A stretch of DNA of 16,152 bases, from positions 1-16,152 of the forward strand of contig JACRDV010000038.1 in assembly GCA_024860865.1 (NCBI GenBank), read 5' to 3'. Below, piece by piece: positions 4,630-11,428 of the stretch. The translations under genes and the position numbers were made by a program. Every line of letters begins with the position of its first letter. Positions within the stretch are counted from its first letter, which is position 1. The notes below the pieces were generated by a model, which saw only the letters and a program-made list of their open reading frames with translations, was not told the origin of the DNA and ran no database searches. The DNA comes from JACRDV01 sp024860865 [NCBI: Methanobacteriota archaeon] (GTDB taxonomy: Archaea; JACRDV01).

Positions 4630-4817
4630 ATTAGCTAATCTTTCAGCGAGCTCTTTTGCTAAAATATTTTTTGGAATTGCATAAAAATAAGGCTCGAAAT
4701 TAGGATCATGGATCGCAACGATTTTTTCATCAAAAGTTTTAAGATAAAGCCTTATAACAGCTTCTTTTTCGCTCTTTGAAAGATGGTCGATATCAAAGAA
4801 TAACCCTTCAACCGTTT
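4630..4817 (-). other. polB: Missing N-terminus of DNA polymerase, in frame but without a start codon
   Basis: In the polymerase frame, minus-strand codons from 4815 to 4630 translate to VEGLFFDIDHL, EAVIRLYLKTFDEK, then DPNFEPYFYAIPKN. This is the classic start of archaeal family B polymerases, including the FePYFY segment. No ATG, GTG or TTG occurs in this frame, and a TAA closes it at 4818-4816. A TTG at 4811, with AGAAGGG about ten bases upstream, lies in the other frame: adding one T to GGTTA near 4804 would give MKGLFFDID and an 805-residue protein. A single-base deletion, real or from sequencing, is the simplest explanation. Confidence 0.8.
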
Positions 4818-4818
4818 A

Positions 4819-4899
4819 AATCCCTTCTTAGCTTTTAGTTATGCCTACGTTAGAAAAAACTTTAACTACTAGTAAATAAGTTAAACTAATTGGGGTAAA
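4819..4899. promoter_or_regulatory. Divergent promoter region between polB and the leu/ilv operon
   Basis: On the plus strand an A-rich stretch followed by CTTTAACT (4860-4867) and AGTAAATA (4871-4878) are two TATA-like candidates. They would place transcription starts near 4890 or 4900, just before or at the leader reading frame. On the minus strand, AGTTTAACTTATTTAC (4885-4870) could serve polB. ACTACTAG (4865-4872) is the inverse of CTAGTAGT (4927-4934), which lies inside the leader frame. Which TATA element is used is not decidable from sequence. Confidence 0.5.
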
Positions 4900-4968
4900 A
4901 TGACTACAAATATTGAATACTTGCTTCTAGTAGTAATTTTGCTTATTTTGTTATAAGTAGTCATCCCC
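4892..4968 (+). promoter_or_regulatory. Long-range hairpin enclosing the leader peptide frame
   Basis: GGGG (4892-4895) pairs with CCCC (4965-4968), and ATGACTAC (4900-4907) pairs exactly with GTAGTCAT (4957-4964), leaving a four-base bulge (4896-4899). The 5' arm contains the leader ribosome binding site and start codon; the 3' arm begins at the first base after the leader stop. An alternative pairing of ACTAC (4903-4907) with GTAGT (4930-4934), inside the Leu/Val codons, would exclude the first. A T-rich run (4977-4985) follows the 3' arm. Pairing was found by eye; no energies were computed. Confidence 0.55.
4900..4956 (+). CDS. Candidate leader peptide of the branched-chain amino acid operon
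   Basis: An ATG at 4900 opens an 18-codon frame, MTTNIEYLLLVVILLILL, ending at TAA 4954-4956. Seven codons are Leu (using TTG, CTT, CTA and TTA), three Ile and two Val, so 12 of 18 residues are the end products of the genes that follow: leuA, cimA, ilvB, ilvN and ilvC. GGGGT (4892-4896) just before the ATG could be a ribosome binding site, although the spacing of three bases is short; leaderless initiation is also possible given the TATA-like AGTAAATA at 4871-4878. The composition and position match the leader peptides that control ilv and leu operons by ribosome stalling in bacteria. I know of no established archaeal counterpart. The alternative is a chance hydrophobic frame or a tiny membrane peptide. 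Confidence 0.62.
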   Translation: MTTNIEYLLLVVILLILL

Positions 4969-4982
4969 ATCGTCCGTTTTCT

Positions 4983-4998
4983 CTTCGGCTTTCCGGAG
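4983..4998 (+). promoter_or_regulatory. Hairpin covering the leuA Shine-Dalgarno sequence
   Basis: CTTCGG (4983-4988) and CCGGAG (4993-4998) form a six-pair stem, with one G-U pair, around a four-base CTTT loop. The 3' arm contains the GGAG ribosome binding site (4995-4998), nine bases before the leuA ATG at 5008. Folding would hide it. An upstream TCCG (4973-4976) could compete for CGGA (4994-4997). Confidence 0.5.
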
Positions 4999-5007
4999 TT
5001 GATTTTT

Positions 5008-6564
5008 ATGGTTTCTGAAGAGACCTTTTATGTAAGTCAATTGGTAAAAAAATCTGTTCCGAAGGTTGGCAGGATCAAGGTATTTGATACCACGCTCAGA
5101 GATGGTGAGCAAACACCTGGCGTTTCATTAACGCCTGAAGAAAAGCTCGAAATAGCCACCCAACTGGATAAACTGGGAGTTGACATAATTGAAGCCGGTT
5201 TTCCAATTACCTCGGATGGTGAAAAAAAAGCAGTTAAATTGATCGCAAAAGCAGGGCTAAAATCTGAGATTTGCGGGCTGGCAAGAGTAACTCAAACTGA
5301 CTTAGATGCTGCAATTAACTGCGATGTCCCATATGTTCATACTTTCGTTGGGACTTCTGAAATCCACATGAAAGTTAAGCTGAAAATGATGCCGGAGCAA
5401 ATTTTAGAAAAAGCAGTTTGGGCCGTAGATTATGTAAAAAATCATGGATTAATTTGTGAATTCTCACCGGAGGATGCAACTAGAACTGATATGGCTTTCC
5501 TAAAGAAAATTTGTAAAGCAGTTCAAGAGGCAAAAGTTGACAAGATTAATATTCCAGATACAGTTGGGGTAATGGTTCCAACTGTTATGAAAAACTTCAT
5601 TTCAGAGTTAAAAAAAGTGATAAAAGTTCCAATTAGCGTTCACTGCCACAACGACCTTGGATTAGCAGTTGCAAATTCTATAGCTGCTGTTGAAGGTGGC
5701 GCAACACAAGTTCATGCCACTATTAATGGACTAGGTGAACGAGCTGGCAATGCAGCATTAGAAGAGGTTGTGATGGGATTAATTGCATTTTATGATGCTC
5801 AAACAAATATCAATACTAAACTAATTGCGGAAACTTCTGAATTAGTTGCTAGATTAACAGGAATTCGCCCTCAACCAAATAAAGCCATAGTTGGCGAAAA
5901 TGCATTTGCACACGAAGCTGGTATCCATGTGCATGGGGTCTTAACCTCTCCAGCTACTTATGAACCAATTACTCCTGAGATGGTTGGCCATAAAAGAAGA
6001 TTGGTTTTGGGAAAACATGTAGGTTCCCATGGAGTGAAAGCTGCACTAGATGAGCTTAATATACAGACAACTCCTGAACAACTCCAAGAGATAGTCACTA
6101 GGATTAAAGCAATTGGCGATAAAGGTAAAACAGTAACTGATGCGGATTTAAGAGCAATTGCTGAAGCAATTGTTGGAGAACTTACCAAAGAAGAAAAAAT
6201 AGTAACACTTGATGAACTTGCAGTAGTTACTGGAAACAGAGTAATTCCAACAGCATCTGTCAAGTTAGTTGTTGAGGGCAAAGAAAGAATAGCCTCAGCT
6301 ACGGGAGTTGGACCGGTCGATGCTGCTCTCAACGCAATTCAAAAAGTATTGGAGCTCCAAGATATTAGACTTAGAGAATATAGATTAGAAGCAATAACCG
6401 GCGGATCTGATGCAATAGCTGAGGTAATGATAAAAATTGAAGATAAATTTAGAAACATAGTTTCAGCAAAAGCAGCGCGCGAAGACATAGTTATGGCATC
6501 AGTTGAAGCTATGGTTAATGCAATTAATAGAATCCTGCTCAAACGCAGGGCAATAGCTGGTTAA
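5008..6564 (+). CDS. leuA: 2-isopropylmalate synthase (LeuA-type)
   Basis: This enzyme probably condenses 2-oxoisovalerate with acetyl-CoA, the first committed step of leucine synthesis. [12 protein letters not shown] (residues 27-38) holds the catalytic Arg31 and metal-binding Asp32; HCHNDLG supplies the other metal ligands; NGLGERAGNA is the second family signature; AFAHEAGIH follows. The C-terminal third (about 390-518) is the LeuA allosteric dimer domain with [13 protein letters not shown], so feedback inhibition is likely. The EAGFP and HTFVGTSEIH segments resemble LeuA rather than CimA, in contrast to the next gene. The ATG at 5008 has GGAG nine bases upstream; the in-frame TTG at 4999 directly abuts that site and is rejected. 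The length of 518 residues is normal. Homocitrate synthase activity cannot be excluded by eye. A candidate leader peptide precedes it. Confidence 0.85.
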   Translation: MVSEETFYVSQLVKKSVPKVGRIKVFDTTLRDGEQTPGVSLTPEEKLEIATQLDKLGVDIIEAGFPITSDGEKKAVKLIAKAGLKSEICGLARVTQTDLDAAINCDVPYVHTFVGTSEIHMKVKLKMMPEQILEKAVWAVDYVKNHGLICEFSPEDATRTDMAFLKKICKAVQEAKVDKINIPDTVGVMVPTVMKNFISELKKVIKVPISVHCHNDLGLAVANSIAAVEGGATQVHATINGLGERAGNAALEEVVMGLIAFYDAQTNINTKLIAETSELVARLTGIRPQPNKAIVGENAFAHEAGIHVHGVLTSPATYEPITPEMVGHKRRLVLGKHVGSHGVKAALDELNIQTTPEQLQEIVTRIKAIGDKGKTVTDADLRAIAEAIVGELTKEEKIVTLDELAVVTGNRVIPTASVKLVVEGKERIASATGVGPVDAALNAIQKVLELQDIRLREYRLEAITGGSDAIAEVMIKIEDKFRNIVSAKAAREDIVMASVEAMVNAINRILLKRRAIAG

Positions 6565-6623: not shown

Positions 6624-8126
6624 ATGTCAACAAAGTTGCCTACAAAAATAAGAGTACTCGATACTACGCTCAGAGATGGTGAACAAACACCTGGCGTTTC
6701 ATTAACGCCTGAAGAAAAATTAAGAACTGCAAGAAGATTAGATGAGCTTGGCATAGATATAATCGAAGCAGGTTCTGCCATTACATCTGAAGGAGAACGC
6801 CAAGCTATCAAATTAATTGCAAATGCCGGCTTAAATGCTGAAATATGCAGTTTTTCTCGCCCTATTCAGAGCGATATAGATTTAGCATTAGCTTGTGATG
6901 TTGACTCAATTCATTTAGTGGTTCCCACTTCAGATATTCATCTTCAATATAAACTTAAGAAAACTCGAGAGCAAGTTAATGAAATGGCGATTAAAGCTAT
7001 TGAGTATGCTAAAGCTCATGGGTTGATCGTTGAACTTTCAGCTGAAGATGCTTCTCGGACTAATATTTCTCATTTAAAAGAATTTTATAAAGCTGGAATT
7101 GAGGCAAAGGCTGATCGTTGCTGCTTTTGTGATACAGTTGGAGTAATGACACCAGAAAATACGACTCAAATCTTCCAAGAACTTAAAAAAGAAATTAAAG
7201 TTCCAGTTGCAGCTCACTGTCATGATGATTTTGGTTTAGCTGTAGCTAATACACTCGCTTCTCTTAGAGGTGGAGCTGAAGAATTCCATGCAACAATAAA
7301 CGGAATCGGCGAGCGTGCTGGTAATGCTTCCCTCGAAGAGATAGTTATGTCTCTAATTTCGTTCTATGGAACCAAACTAAATATTAAGACCGAACTTTTA
7401 GTTGAAACCTCAAAACTTGTCGAAAGATTAACTGGCATACCAGTACCCCCGAACAAAGCAATAGTTGGGGAGCATGCATTCGCACACGAAGCTGGGATTC
7501 ATACTCATGGAGTTTTAGCATATCCCGGGACCTATGAGCCAATTACCCCTGAGATGGTTGGGCACCGTAGACGGTTCATTCTTGGAAAAGATGTCGGCTC
7601 TCATGCAATTAAAGTAATGTTAAAGGAGGTTGGTCTAGAACCAACCGAAGATGAACTAAAGCAAGTTGTAAATAGAGTTAAAGAGCTTGGTGACAAAGGG
7701 AAGAAAATTACGGATGCTGATTTGCAGTCAATTGCTGAGTCAGTTATGGGGGTTATAGGAGAAAAATTTGTTGAGTTAAATGAACTAACTGTTGTAACTG
7801 GGAATAGAGTGACCCCAACAGCATCTGTTAGGCTAAAAATAAGGGACCAAGAATTCTTGCAGTCAGCTACGGGAGTTGGGCCGGTCGATGCTGCTCTCAA
7901 TGCAATTCAAAAAGTATTGGGTGAGCTCGCAGATGTTAATTTAGATCAATATAGAGTTGAAGCAATTACTGGAGGAACTGATGCATTAGTTGAAGTTCAT
8001 GTTAAGCTACGAAGGAATAATCAAATTGTAACTGCCAGAGGATCTGCTAGCGACATAGTTATGGCTAGTGTTGAGGCGATGCTAGCGGGTATTAATAGAT
8101 TGCTTACAAGATATCCTAAGAAGTGA
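6624..8126 (+). CDS. cimA: (R)-citramalate synthase (CimA-type)
   Basis: A paralogue of the preceding gene that probably condenses pyruvate with acetyl-CoA to citramalate, the start of the threonine-independent route to isoleucine. [12 protein letters not shown] (residues 13-24) gives Arg17 and Asp18; HCHDDFG and [14 protein letters not shown] follow, and the C-terminal allosteric domain carries [13 protein letters not shown]. The segments [14 protein letters not shown] and [13 protein letters not shown] match what I remember of the characterised Methanocaldococcus CimA (MJ1392) better than LeuA. Length is 500 residues. GGTGT (6614-6618) lies five bases before the ATG. It begins 59 bases after leuA and its last codons overlap possible starts of ilvB, so it is cotranscribed with both. 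Two tracts of about 59 bases are nearly identical to leuA at DNA level. Substrate choice between pyruvate and 2-oxoisovalerate is inferred. Confidence 0.83.
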
Positions 8127-8131
8127 GTTAC

Positions 8132-9814
8132 ATGGTTAAAATGACGGGTGGCAAAGCAATTTTAGAATCCTTAAAAAGGCATGGGGTAAAAGTAATATTT
8201 GGATTGCCTGGTGGAGCAATTCTCCCACTTTATGATGACATTTACAAAGATAAAGATATCAGGCATATTTTAGTTAGGCATGAGCAAGTGGCGGCGCACG
8301 CTAGTGATGGTTTTGCTCGAGCCAGTGGTAAGCCTGGAATTTGTATGGCAACTTCTGGCCCAGGAGCAACAAATCTTACCACTGGAATTGCAAATGCTTA
8401 TATGGATTCAAGTCCTGTAATTGCTTTTACTGGGCAAGTTGCTAGACCATTAATTGGAAATGATGCGTTCCAAGAAACAGATGCGTGCGGTATTACCCTT
8501 CCAATCACTAAACATAATTTTAAAATAATGAAAACAAAGGAAATCCCACAAATTATTAAAATGGCTTTTAAAATCGCTACAACTGGCAGACCTGGTCCAG
8601 TTCACATTGATTTACCTAGAGATGTTCAATCTGAGGAAACTGATTTTGACTTTGAAGCTGAACCAGAAATGCCGGGCTACAAGCCAACTATTGAAGGGCA
8701 TCCTCTTCAAATAAAGAGAGCAGCCGAAATTATCAGTGAAGCTGAGCGCCCAATTGTTTTGGCTGGCGGAGGAGTGATTCATTCAAATGCATCGCCAGAA
8801 TTATCAGTATTTGCTGAAATGCTTGGCTCGCCCGTAACAACAACATTTATGGGAAAGAGCTCTTTTCCAGAAAACCATCCGCTTGCCCTTGGAACAATTG
8901 GGATGCATGGTAAAAAGGCAGCTAATAAAGCAGTTACTGAGAGCGATGTTTTAATTGCTATTGGATGTAGATTTTCAGATAGATCAACTGGTAACGTCCA
9001 GTATTTTGCACAAAATGCAAAAATTATTCACATAGATATTGACCCGGCCGAAATTGGGAAAAATATAAAAATTTTTGTTCCAATCGTTGGGGATGCGAAA
9101 AGAGTTCTAAAATCATTGATCGAACGGCTCAAAGAGATTTATAAAAAAGGTAAAACCACAGCTTGGGTTGAGAAAATTAATCAATTTAAAAAAGAGTTCC
9201 AACCAAAAATGGACTACGATGAAATACCAATTAAACCCCAGAGGGTTATGAAAGAGCTAAATTCAATAATTGATTCGAATACAATTATAACAACGGAAGT
9301 TGGGCAAAACCAAATGTGGGCAGGACATTTTCTAGAAGTCCATCATCCTAGGCAGTTTATTTCATCGGGAGGACTCGGAACAATGGGATTTGGATTCCCA
9401 GCCGCAATTGGAGCAAAGGTTGCGCGACCAGAAGCTACAGTTATTGATGTTGCTGGAGATGGTTCATTCTTAATGGTTGAACAAGATTTAGCAACTTGTG
9501 TGCTTGAAAAAATTCCAGTTATAGTTTTAATTCTTGACAACAGACGATTAGGGATGGTCTCACAATGGCAAGAACTTTTTTACGGGGGAAGGCTTTCTGC
9601 TACTTTATTGGGCGAGTCTCCAGATTTTGTTAAACTCACGGAAGCGTATGGAGCGAAAGCTGAATATGTTACCAGACCAAATGAAATTCGGCCAGCACTA
9701 GAGAGGGCAATAAAATCAAATGAGCCATATGTGTTAGATGTTATAGTTGATCCAAAGGAGCACGTATTGCCGATGGTTCCACCAGGTGGTCGACTCGATC
9801 AAATGATTGGGTGA
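8132..9814 (+). CDS. ilvB: Acetolactate synthase large (catalytic) subunit
   Basis: This TPP enzyme condenses two pyruvates to acetolactate (valine and leucine) or pyruvate with 2-oxobutyrate (isoleucine). The N-terminal domain has the catalytic Glu in [17 protein letters not shown] and the SGPGATN segment. The middle domain carries ALGTIGMHG, and the C-terminal domain has the TPP/Mg motif AGDGSF (codons 9452-9469) ending at LDNRRLGM. The length of about 560 residues is normal. Two starts are possible: GTG at 8123, overlapping the cimA stop as GTGA, or ATG at 8132; I prefer the ATG because AAGTGA sits five bases upstream, though the difference is three residues. The gene follows cimA without a gap and overlaps or abuts ilvN, so translation is probably coupled. 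Confidence 0.95.
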
Positions 9815-9821
9815 ATTAAAA

Positions 9822-10328
9822 GTGGAAAGAGAGCACGTTCTGGTAGCATTGGTTGAGAATAAACCAGGTGTTATGCAAAGAATTTCTGGAATGTTTGCTA
9901 AAAGAGGGTTCAATATTGAAACTATAACAGTTGGACCGACTGAGAGTCAAGAGCTATCTAGGATGACATTAGTTGTTAAAGGCGATGAAAGAGTTCTGGA
10001 GCAGGTTCAAAAACAACTGAATAAACTGGTTGAAGTAATAAAAGTAAGCGATGTTGATCCAAACGAGAGCGTTATACGAGAGCTCTGCCTAATAAAGGTA
10101 CATACTCCTGACCAACATGCCCGTGCTCAAGTTGTACAATATGCCCACATATTTCGGGCACATGTTGTTGATGTAAGCCCAGAATCTCTTATGATAGAGC
10201 TCACTGGTGATTCAGACAAGATCAATGCTTTTATTGAATTGATGCGCGGATTTGGGATTAAAGAATTGGCCCGCACGGGAACAACTGCCATGCAGAGAGG
10301 GGCAAAGATAATAGAACCCAAAAAATAG
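9822..10328 (+). CDS. ilvN: Acetolactate synthase small (regulatory) subunit
   Basis: The N-terminal ACT domain, [21 protein letters not shown] then [12 protein letters not shown], is the valine-binding regulatory domain of IlvN/IlvH; the C-terminal half ([22 protein letters not shown] onward) is the second IlvH domain. It would bind IlvB, raise its activity and confer feedback inhibition. The start is uncertain: TTG at 9807 overlaps the ilvB stop by eight bases and has no ribosome binding site, while GTG at 9822 has GGTGA (9810-9814) seven bases upstream, which also contains the ilvB stop codon. I choose the GTG, giving 168 residues, close to the family norm. The arrangement implies translational coupling with ilvB. 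The subunit order ilvB-ilvN-ilvC is the classic one. Confidence 0.93.
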
Positions 10329-10438: not shown

Positions 10439-11428
10439 TTGGCTAAAATATACTATGAGCAAGATGCCGACCTTGAAATTTTGAAAGAAAAAACAATTGC
10501 TGTCATTGGTTATGGTTCTCAAGGCTCTGCTCAAGCAAACAATATGAAAGACTCTGGGCTGAAAGTTATTATTGGACTTAGACCTGAGGGAGCTTCAGCT
10601 GAAAGAGCCAAACAAGATGGATTCGAAGTTTTCCCGATATCTGAAGCAGCCGCCAAGGCTGACATTATTCATGTTTTAATTCCAGATGAGGTACAAGCAG
10701 ATGTTTATAATTCTGAAATTGCTCAGCAATTAAAGCCTGGCAAAGCTCTTGGTTTTTCTCACGGTTTCAATATTAGATTTAAACAAATTGTCCCTCCAAA
10801 CTTTGTCGACATAATAATGATTGCCCCAAAAGGCCCGGGCTTAATTGTTAGAAAATTATACAAAGAAGGATTTGGCGTTCCGGCATTAATTGCAGTTGAA
10901 CAAGATTACACAGGGAAAGCAAAGCAGATAGCGCTTGGGATGGCAAAAGCAATTGGTTCAACTAAAGTTGGTGTAATTGAAACAACTTTTGCAGAAGAAT
11001 GTGAAACAGATCTATTTGGAGAACAAGTTGACCTTTGTGGTGGAGTGACTGAGCTAATTAAAGCAAGCTTTGAGACTTTAGTTGAAGCTGGTTATCAACA
11101 TGAAATTGCTTATTTCGAAACCCTCCATGAACTAAAATTGATCGTTGATCTAATTTACTCACGAGGGTTGTATGGGATGTGGTCGGCAGTTTCTAACACA
11201 GCAAAGTATGGTGGATTAACTAGAGGAAAAAAAATCGTCAGCAAAGCATCTCGAAGGTCAATGAAGAAGATACTTGAGTACGTTAAAAGCGGCAAGTTCG
11301 CTGAAGAGTGGATGAAAGAAAATAAAAAAGGTCGACCTAAACTTAATGCATTGTTAGAGCAGGAGAAAGGGCATTTAATTGAAAAAGTTGGAAAAGAAAT
11401 CAGAAAAATGGCCGGTATAGAGAAATAA
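10439..11428 (+). CDS. ilvC: Ketol-acid reductoisomerase (class I)
   Basis: It converts acetolactate or acetohydroxybutyrate to the dihydroxy acid by a Mg-dependent alkyl shift and NAD(P)H reduction. The Rossmann motif is [10 protein letters not shown] (residues 23-32). The cofactor loop after the second strand reads [11 protein letters not shown] (46-56); Arg48 and Ser53 point to NADPH, but Glu50 is unusual enough to leave this open. SHGFNI, PKGPG and ETDLFGEQ, with its metal-binding Asp and Glu, followed by [16 protein letters not shown], mark the knotted C-terminal domain. The length of 329 residues is that of the short class I enzyme. The TTG start is chosen from the GGGAGGGG ribosome binding site six bases upstream. 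PKGPGLIVR has Leu where His is common. It closes the branched-chain cluster; ilvD and leuBCD are not in the window. Confidence 0.95.

Follow-up and report, generated by a model that had tools for sequence, protein, structure and literature searches.

Whether an archaeal operon for branched-chain amino acids (BCAA; here Leu, Ile and Val) may be governed by a short translated leader, in the manner of the bacterial leader peptides IlvL, IvbL and LeuL that act in ribosome-mediated transcription attenuation, is the question raised by contig JACRDV010000038.1 of the Methanobacteriota archaeon JACRDV01 sp024860865. Its whole analysed stretch of 16,152 nucleotides is referred to as the window. A frame of 18 codons, MTTNIEYLLLVVILLILL, was read from the sequence on the forward strand at 4900-4956 (ATG at 4900, TAA at 4954-4956), with 51 bases separating its stop from the leuA ATG at 5008. 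An earlier sequence-only reading had reported this frame with 12 Leu, Ile or Val among its 18 residues, and the coordinates, the composition and the spacing all hold. The run of nothing but Leu, Val and Ile after residue 7, claimed in the same place, was also borne out:

4921-4953, forward strand: BCAA stretch of the leader, 11 Leu/Val/Ile codons in a row

It is proposed here, with a probability of roughly 0.68, that the frame would be a translated leader peptide sensing the supply of charged Leu-, Ile- and Val-tRNA for its operon.

The frame ranks first among 379 short frames of the window, with 11 of 11 Leu/Ile/Val in an 11-residue stretch and a runner-up of 8. It is also first among 912 short upstream frames in a genome sample of 605 long open reading frames on 61 contigs (614,232 of 1,544,231 bases, 40% of the genome), where two frames follow with 9. 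An excess over AT-rich random sequence had been asserted as well, and dinucleotide shuffles of 4817-5007 agree with it: at least 10 BCAA residues were reached in 6 of 20,000 and 11 in 1 of 20,000 (2 and 0 of 20,000 with ATG starts only), and a separate shuffle set matched the score in 0 of 2,000, in tests that are not fully prior because the frame was originally chosen by a reader who saw the adjoining leuA. That the frame arose by chance in a T-rich promoter-proximal region, and is untranslated or functionless, has to be weighed, and we consider it unlikely. The leader region is 44% T, but the shuffles keep the composition and seldom reach the score. Under a fixed criterion of at least 8 BCAA among the last 12 residues, comparable frames occur at 4 of the 412 further genes covered in the window's genome, at 1 of 118 upstream regions from distant archaea (89 leuA and 29 ilvB) and at 4 of 21 loci of another archaeal set. 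However, the four in the window's own genome score only 8, one of them lying inside a trpE-like gene, and the same kind of frame precedes leuA in other archaea, as set out below. The four loci of the 21 are L203, described below, Odinarchaeia L186 and L196, and Borrarchaeum L204, which satisfy this loose criterion; L186 has the same sequence as L121 of the distant set. A match of 11 of 11 upstream at L144, also in the distant set, was rejected as a leader, since by eye it is the C-terminal end of the protein encoded just before.

The sequence-only reading had placed the frame at the head of a leuA-cimA-ilvB-ilvN-ilvC operon. NCBIfam matches uphold the gene types, with the reservation that leuA and cimA are assigned there only to the isopropylmalate/citramalate synthase type and that cimA is a putative name:

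5008-6564, forward strand: leuA, 2-isopropylmalate synthase of the archaeal clade (NCBIfam match, LeuA tree)
6624-8126, forward strand: second isopropylmalate/citramalate synthase type gene, possibly cimA (NCBIfam match)
8135-9814, forward strand: ilvB, acetolactate synthase large subunit (NCBIfam match)
9807-10328, forward strand: ilvN, acetolactate synthase small subunit (NCBIfam match)
10439-11428, forward strand: ilvC, ketol-acid reductoisomerase (NCBIfam match)

The leuA start at 5008 was called by eye from homologues, L007 beginning MPKETFVSDYIRQ.. and the window protein MVSEETFYVSQ... Ahead of the leader two TATA-like boxes were recognised, and a third match (6/8) lies only 15 bases before its ATG:

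4861-4868, forward strand: TATA-like box TTTAACTA, 7/8 consensus, centre 35 bases before the leader ATG
4871-4878, forward strand: TATA-like box AGTAAATA, 6/8 consensus, centre 25 bases before the leader ATG

With the two boxes at these distances, the transcript probably has the leader as its first element and would start, by prediction, at about 4891 or about at the leader ATG itself. A short frame rich in product codons, located between a promoter (by the sequence-predicted start) and the first gene of the cognate operon, with TATA-like boxes on its 5' side and leuA and the ilv genes on its 3' side, is what the window shares with the IlvL, IvbL and LeuL attenuators. Comparable frames by the fixed criterion were found at 4 of 59 bacterial leuA upstreams, for example Bradyrhizobium L253. 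The window differs in its archaeal genome, its TATA-type promoter and the location of the leader at the 5' end or close to it.

Leaders of this kind were also found before bacterial-type leuA genes in other archaea. In Candidatus Diapherotrites (L203) the leader MTAARFLGLKSLICLLALLVLVLVLLG lies ahead of leuA-ilvB. A search with the L203 LeuA, covering 37 genomes hand-picked from intermediate LeuA matches and not taken at random, returned nine distinct loci with a LeuA at least 53% identical to that of L203, or the seed itself (duplicates counted once: L408 = L203; L413 = L202; L415 = L414 = L208). Clear leaders were identified in three of the nine, L408, L409 (MKTAGSFGTKSTNYLLSLLVLLLVLLLG) and L411 (MESASKIGLLNVLLVLVVLLVLV), with scores of 10-11, each matched in 0 of 2,000 shuffles. 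Four further loci have weaker leaders, judged by the Leu-rich end and by eye, which are not significant singly (shuffle P 0.06 to 0.68): L410, L412 (ending ..TNLFVLLLL), L413 (..TNLFLLL, its start past the contig end) and L414 (..SNLFLLL). No leader was found at the remaining two, L416 and L417, where leuA is apparently mid-operon, an aminotransferase-like frame (named by eye) reaching it. By the fixed criterion 4 of 12 loci of this leuA set pass as against 4 of 412 for the remaining genes in the window's genome (Fisher P 2.5e-5), and with the seed excluded 3 of 11 (P 4.4e-4).

A local hairpin follows the stop in these loci, and the number of shuffles as good per 200 is 0 in L408, 3 in L413, 6 in L409 and 9 in L411, the hairpin being weaker in L414 (18), L412 (32) and L410 (33). 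The distance from TATA-like box to start is 24-27 bases in L408, L411 and L414 and 42 or 24 bases in L409; in L410 and L412, at 17-19 bases, the box is too close. Seven leader regions together hold 24 runs of four or more T, where mononucleotide shuffles predict 12.6 (P 0.00 to 0.56 for single regions; summed Poisson P 0.003), an excess to be read with the caveat that Leu, Val and Phe codons themselves favour such runs. As a separate candidate, the Ile-rich frame MAFKGFSTLATILICIIGA of L420, with a TATA-like box before it and an isopropylmalate/citramalate synthase type gene after it, was judged unconvincing (shuffle P 0.23, no hairpin). In two further genomes leuA has a tRNA-Val gene (anticodon GAC) as its immediate 5' neighbour, at 1345-1418 of L018 and 3109-3182 of L019.

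The sequence-only reading had suggested looking in relatives for a BCAA-rich frame that is kept while its bases vary. This pattern was seen in another lineage, between L408 and L409, the LeuA proteins of which are 75% identical and the upstream regions of which align from TATA box to hairpin. Among the last 12 aligned codons, a border set post hoc, after alignment, 8 differ: 6 changes are synonymous, one exchanges Val for Leu and one Ala for Ser. Every one of the 11 BCAA residues in this C-terminal stretch is still a BCAA. With this success of the codon comparison, archaeal BCAA leaders become credible as a kind. In the Bathyarchaeia no BCAA-rich frame was seen at the cimA and ilvB starts covered, as described below.

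Two types of LeuA are involved: the archaeal clade, to which the window belongs, and the bacterial type of Diapherotrites, Nanohalarchaeota and further archaea. In the tree the window LeuA falls inside an archaeal set (26 rows, 95/93), the DPANN type lies on the bacterial side, and the LeuA of L203 clusters with two Nanohalarchaeota (100/98). Two DPANN-type LeuA pass the bacterial leuA cut-off; the window LeuA does not. That the window's genome is archaeal is supported by the place of its LeuA in this set and by a genome rated as belonging to the same domain, G281, the leuA record of which recurs in a Nanohalarchaeota genome. Judged by these placements, the window leader did not arrive with a bacterial-type leuA, while the DPANN leaders may have come with their operon from bacteria. 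As the simplest reading, we infer two origins of the leaders.

The leader of the window is enclosed by a predicted helix and followed by a hairpin and several T-runs:

4900-4907, forward strand: 5' arm of the helix, ATGACTAC, codons 1-3 with the start codon included
4957-4968, forward strand: 3' arm of the helix, GTAGTCAT plus CCCC, beginning with the first base past the leader stop
4983-4998, forward strand: hairpin CTTCGG-CTTT-CCGGAG, its 3' arm carrying GGAG, the likely leuA Shine-Dalgarno sequence, and followed by T5
4937-4940, 4946-4949 (both inside the leader frame), 4977-4980 and 5003-5007, forward strand: T-runs of T4 or longer

The 5' arm is perfectly complementary to GTAGTCAT (8 bases, 4957-4964), and GGGG at 4892-4895 can lengthen the helix by four pairs with CCCC. 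Folding of 4890-4972 gives z -3.2, as good in only 2 of 200 shuffles; for the longer stretch 4880-5020 the values are z -1.7 and 11 of 200. A 16S rRNA gene was sought in the assembly as the Shine-Dalgarno pairing partner of GGAG, and none was found.

A perfect 8-bp inverted repeat close to a promoter might also be a DNA operator for a repressor, the coding capacity between ATGACTAC and GTAGTCAT being incidental. A palindrome-like stretch, ATGATttcaattttATCAT or variants, which looks like a repressor operator, stands right after the TATA box in one group of ilvB upstreams (L160, L165, L167-L170 and L182). The half sites of the window, however, are 57 bases apart, the second one past the leader, and 11 consecutive BCAA codons would be left unexplained, so that an operator is very unlikely. 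The hydrophobic 11-residue C-terminal stretch would also suit a small membrane peptide that has a function in its own right, but it contains no Phe, Met, Ala or Gly and is too short to span a membrane as a single helix, and this explanation is highly improbable.

Archaeal transcription and translation occur in one compartment. Starting from the frame, its composition and position, the helix, the hairpin and the U-runs, all read from the sequence, a course of translation, stalling, direction of response and output may be proposed. A ribosome would load at the start codon of the leader, which would lie at the transcript's 5' end or close to it. With plentiful amino acids it would reach the stop and depart, the helix between codons 1-3 and the post-stop bases would close, and the U-tracts and the hairpin at the leuA ribosome-binding site would be left free of ribosomes, keeping the operon low. 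With scarce amino acids the ribosome would remain on the 11 BCAA codons beside RNA polymerase and would hold off termination at the U-tracts by aCPSF1/FttA, so that the operon would be expressed. Such conditional U-tract termination is our preferred, tentative guess for the output step, because, according to passages of the cited papers, two U4 tracts are required for efficient aCPSF1 binding and most archaeal terminators do not strictly require a hairpin (PMC8716108), and a coupled ribosome and aCPSF1 termination have been speculated to be mutually exclusive (PMC8116511). The sensing of BCAA supply by leader translation is better supported than transcription attenuation, which is an inference. 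The broader proposal, that leader sensing of BCAA supply occurs in archaea with both LeuA types and is wired to U-tract/aCPSF1 termination as a translated, U-rich conditional terminator, is possible but doubtful.

Several observations weigh against the leader reading or its output step. Leu is not encoded in the leader by markedly rare codons. The score of the helix is not unique to it, since 42 of 5,942 ATG frames score as high. Unlike L408, L409 and L413, the window is without a strong local hairpin directly after the leader stop (z -0.5; 58 of 200 shuffles as good), and its 4 T-runs against 2.3 expected (P 0.13) are no significant excess in the window alone. In the preceding 13 codons of L408 and L409, 12 are changed, 9 of them nonsynonymously, and 0 of 4 BCAA residues are kept (Fisher P 0.065 for the contrast with the C-terminal part). 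RNAalifold on this pair gave 36 paired columns. Both sides are changed in 7, of which 2 belong to a stem within the leader, 2 are at the post-stop hairpin and 3 precede the promoter. With 3 of the 7 compensated pairs outside the transcript in this way, the covariation is no evidence beyond noise.

In a fold model of the window with the ribosome placed at six positions or absent (7 states), no mutually exclusive terminator/antiterminator pairing appeared in any state, and the GGAG hairpin stayed closed in all of them (unpaired 0.02-0.11). The interpretation of the sequence-only reading is partly supported: position, composition and cognate operon agree with it, and no alternative-hairpin switch was found in this model. 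The same sensor might work as a classical bacterial-type attenuator with mutually exclusive hairpins, a reading that overlaps with ours and would draw on the helix 4900-4907/4957-4964, on the hairpin 4983-4998 with its T5, and on a 7-base complement joining BCAA codons to post-stop bases in L409 (4-5 bases in L408, L411 and L412). The two structures of the window show no competition in the modelled states, however, the hairpin stretch reaches z only -1.2, and hairpins are mostly dispensable for archaeal terminators, as stated in part of PMC8716108; a classical attenuator is quite unlikely.

The sensor might also act on translation, again in overlap with our reading, the leader ribosome opening or closing the leuA start or re-initiating there. 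The GGAG within the hairpin arm and the 51 bases from leader stop to leuA would suit this, and in the model the leuA AUG, 0.16 unpaired in the ribosome-free state, reaches 0.52-0.53 when a ribosome occupies the last codon or the stop, and in no other state. Against it, the Shine-Dalgarno bases remain closed, and the AUG opens at the stop and not on the first BCAA codons. Translational control is therefore fairly unlikely. A scan of the window with Rfam leader and T-box families at the gathering score gave 0 matches, and a tRNA scan of the window gave no match. Since no terminator/antiterminator switch was found, by folding only, the window leader is not filed in the IlvL/IvbL/LeuL family; the claim is that it would work like a member.

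Searches for relatives in the genus, family, class and phylum returned, in the collections covered, only this genome itself, a lack of close relatives for comparison that counts in favour of a chance frame. The closest LeuA are those of Bathyarchaeia, with up to 68% identity, and there the fixed criterion detected a BCAA-rich frame at 0 of 38 cimA starts (highest score 7/11) and at 0 of 20 ilvB starts, the ilvB genes being assumed to be operon heads. Each of 30 Bathyarchaeial leuA loci has a long frame on the same strand ahead of leuA, in most of them close by but at -397 in L274 and -526 in L280, and the best BCAA score is 7; the upstream frame of L184 resembles leuB by eye. For this reason leuA seems to be mid-operon there and not comparable with leuA of the window. 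In 20 further Bathyarchaeial upstream regions no BCAA score exceeded 5. Because few archaeal upstreams pass the criterion, and none of the Bathyarchaeial cimA and ilvB starts, the BCAA leader is, by these upstream sequences, not a feature of this operon that archaea have long had in common.

An archaeal precedent for control of a biosynthetic operon in response to an amino acid is found in the trp operons, which are under TrpY-type repression; this differs from the window leader in using a repressor protein and TGTACA boxes. The head of the trp operon in the window's own genome (L073, about 2511-2861; genes named by eye) carries several TGTAC/TGTACA sites resembling the TrpY box, and a Trp-rich leader sought before this operon was not found; the genome may thus control trp by a repressor. 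Among bacterial systems, a small upstream frame or attenuator controls the BCAA operon ilvBNC of Corynebacterium, as described in parts of PMC10272879 and PMC11857589, a likeness in description. In ErmC-type translational attenuation, according to an excerpt of PMC10219788, translation of the leader is linked to the uncovering of the ribosome-binding site of the following gene; there the arrest is drug-induced, whereas in the window amino-acid supply is the proposed signal and the Shine-Dalgarno bases stay unexposed in the fold model.

The sequence-only reading was not aware of an established archaeal example, and in what was available of the literature matches listed on archaeal leader peptides, none concerned an archaeal amino-acid operon under leader-peptide control. 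In the accessible portion of a Methanothermobacter paper, ilvBCD attenuation is mentioned in passing, with a leader-peptide reference that concerns Corynebacterium (PMC13158618). A Methanosarcina mazei Ribo-seq study places 10% of unannotated small open reading frames in 5' untranslated regions, by the part of it consulted (PMC11456600). If such leaders work, a bacterial control principle would also run on archaeal ribosomes, RNA polymerase and termination factors, and would offer a natural, tunable reporter of archaeal transcription-translation coupling.

Some minor observations were made in the course of the analysis. Many Bathyarchaeia have a second isopropylmalate/citramalate synthase gene on the 5' side of ilvB. 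Of 40 Bathyarchaeial starts of this gene fetched (L298-L317, L388-L407), 38 contain the enzyme core. The motif [AG]TGGGGTATYGCTTTATY, in this or a variant form, is present in 37 of these 38, and its start codon is +1 out of the enzyme frame in 37 of 37. The frame from the motif start ends after 6-16 codons (MGYCFI*, MGYRFIE*). An in-frame ATG, GTG or TTG before the core is missing in 17 of the 38 genes; 21 have one, often far upstream or near the core. Motif positions 7 and 10 change mostly silently in the enzyme frame, and TTTAT (13-17) is invariant in 36 ungapped copies. This pattern points to a +1 frameshift throughout the class or to an unusual start; one archaeal frameshift, a -1 case, is reported in the consulted part of a review of archaeal recoding (PMC8211752).

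Within the window itself, the divergent DNA polymerase B gene has at 4800-4830 (reverse strand) an N-terminus without ATG, GTG or TTG, a stop codon and then ACG standing right before VEGLFFDIDHL. At 353-1043 on the forward strand, two adjoining small genes resemble, by eye, a pair of DNA-binding antitoxin and PIN-domain toxin.
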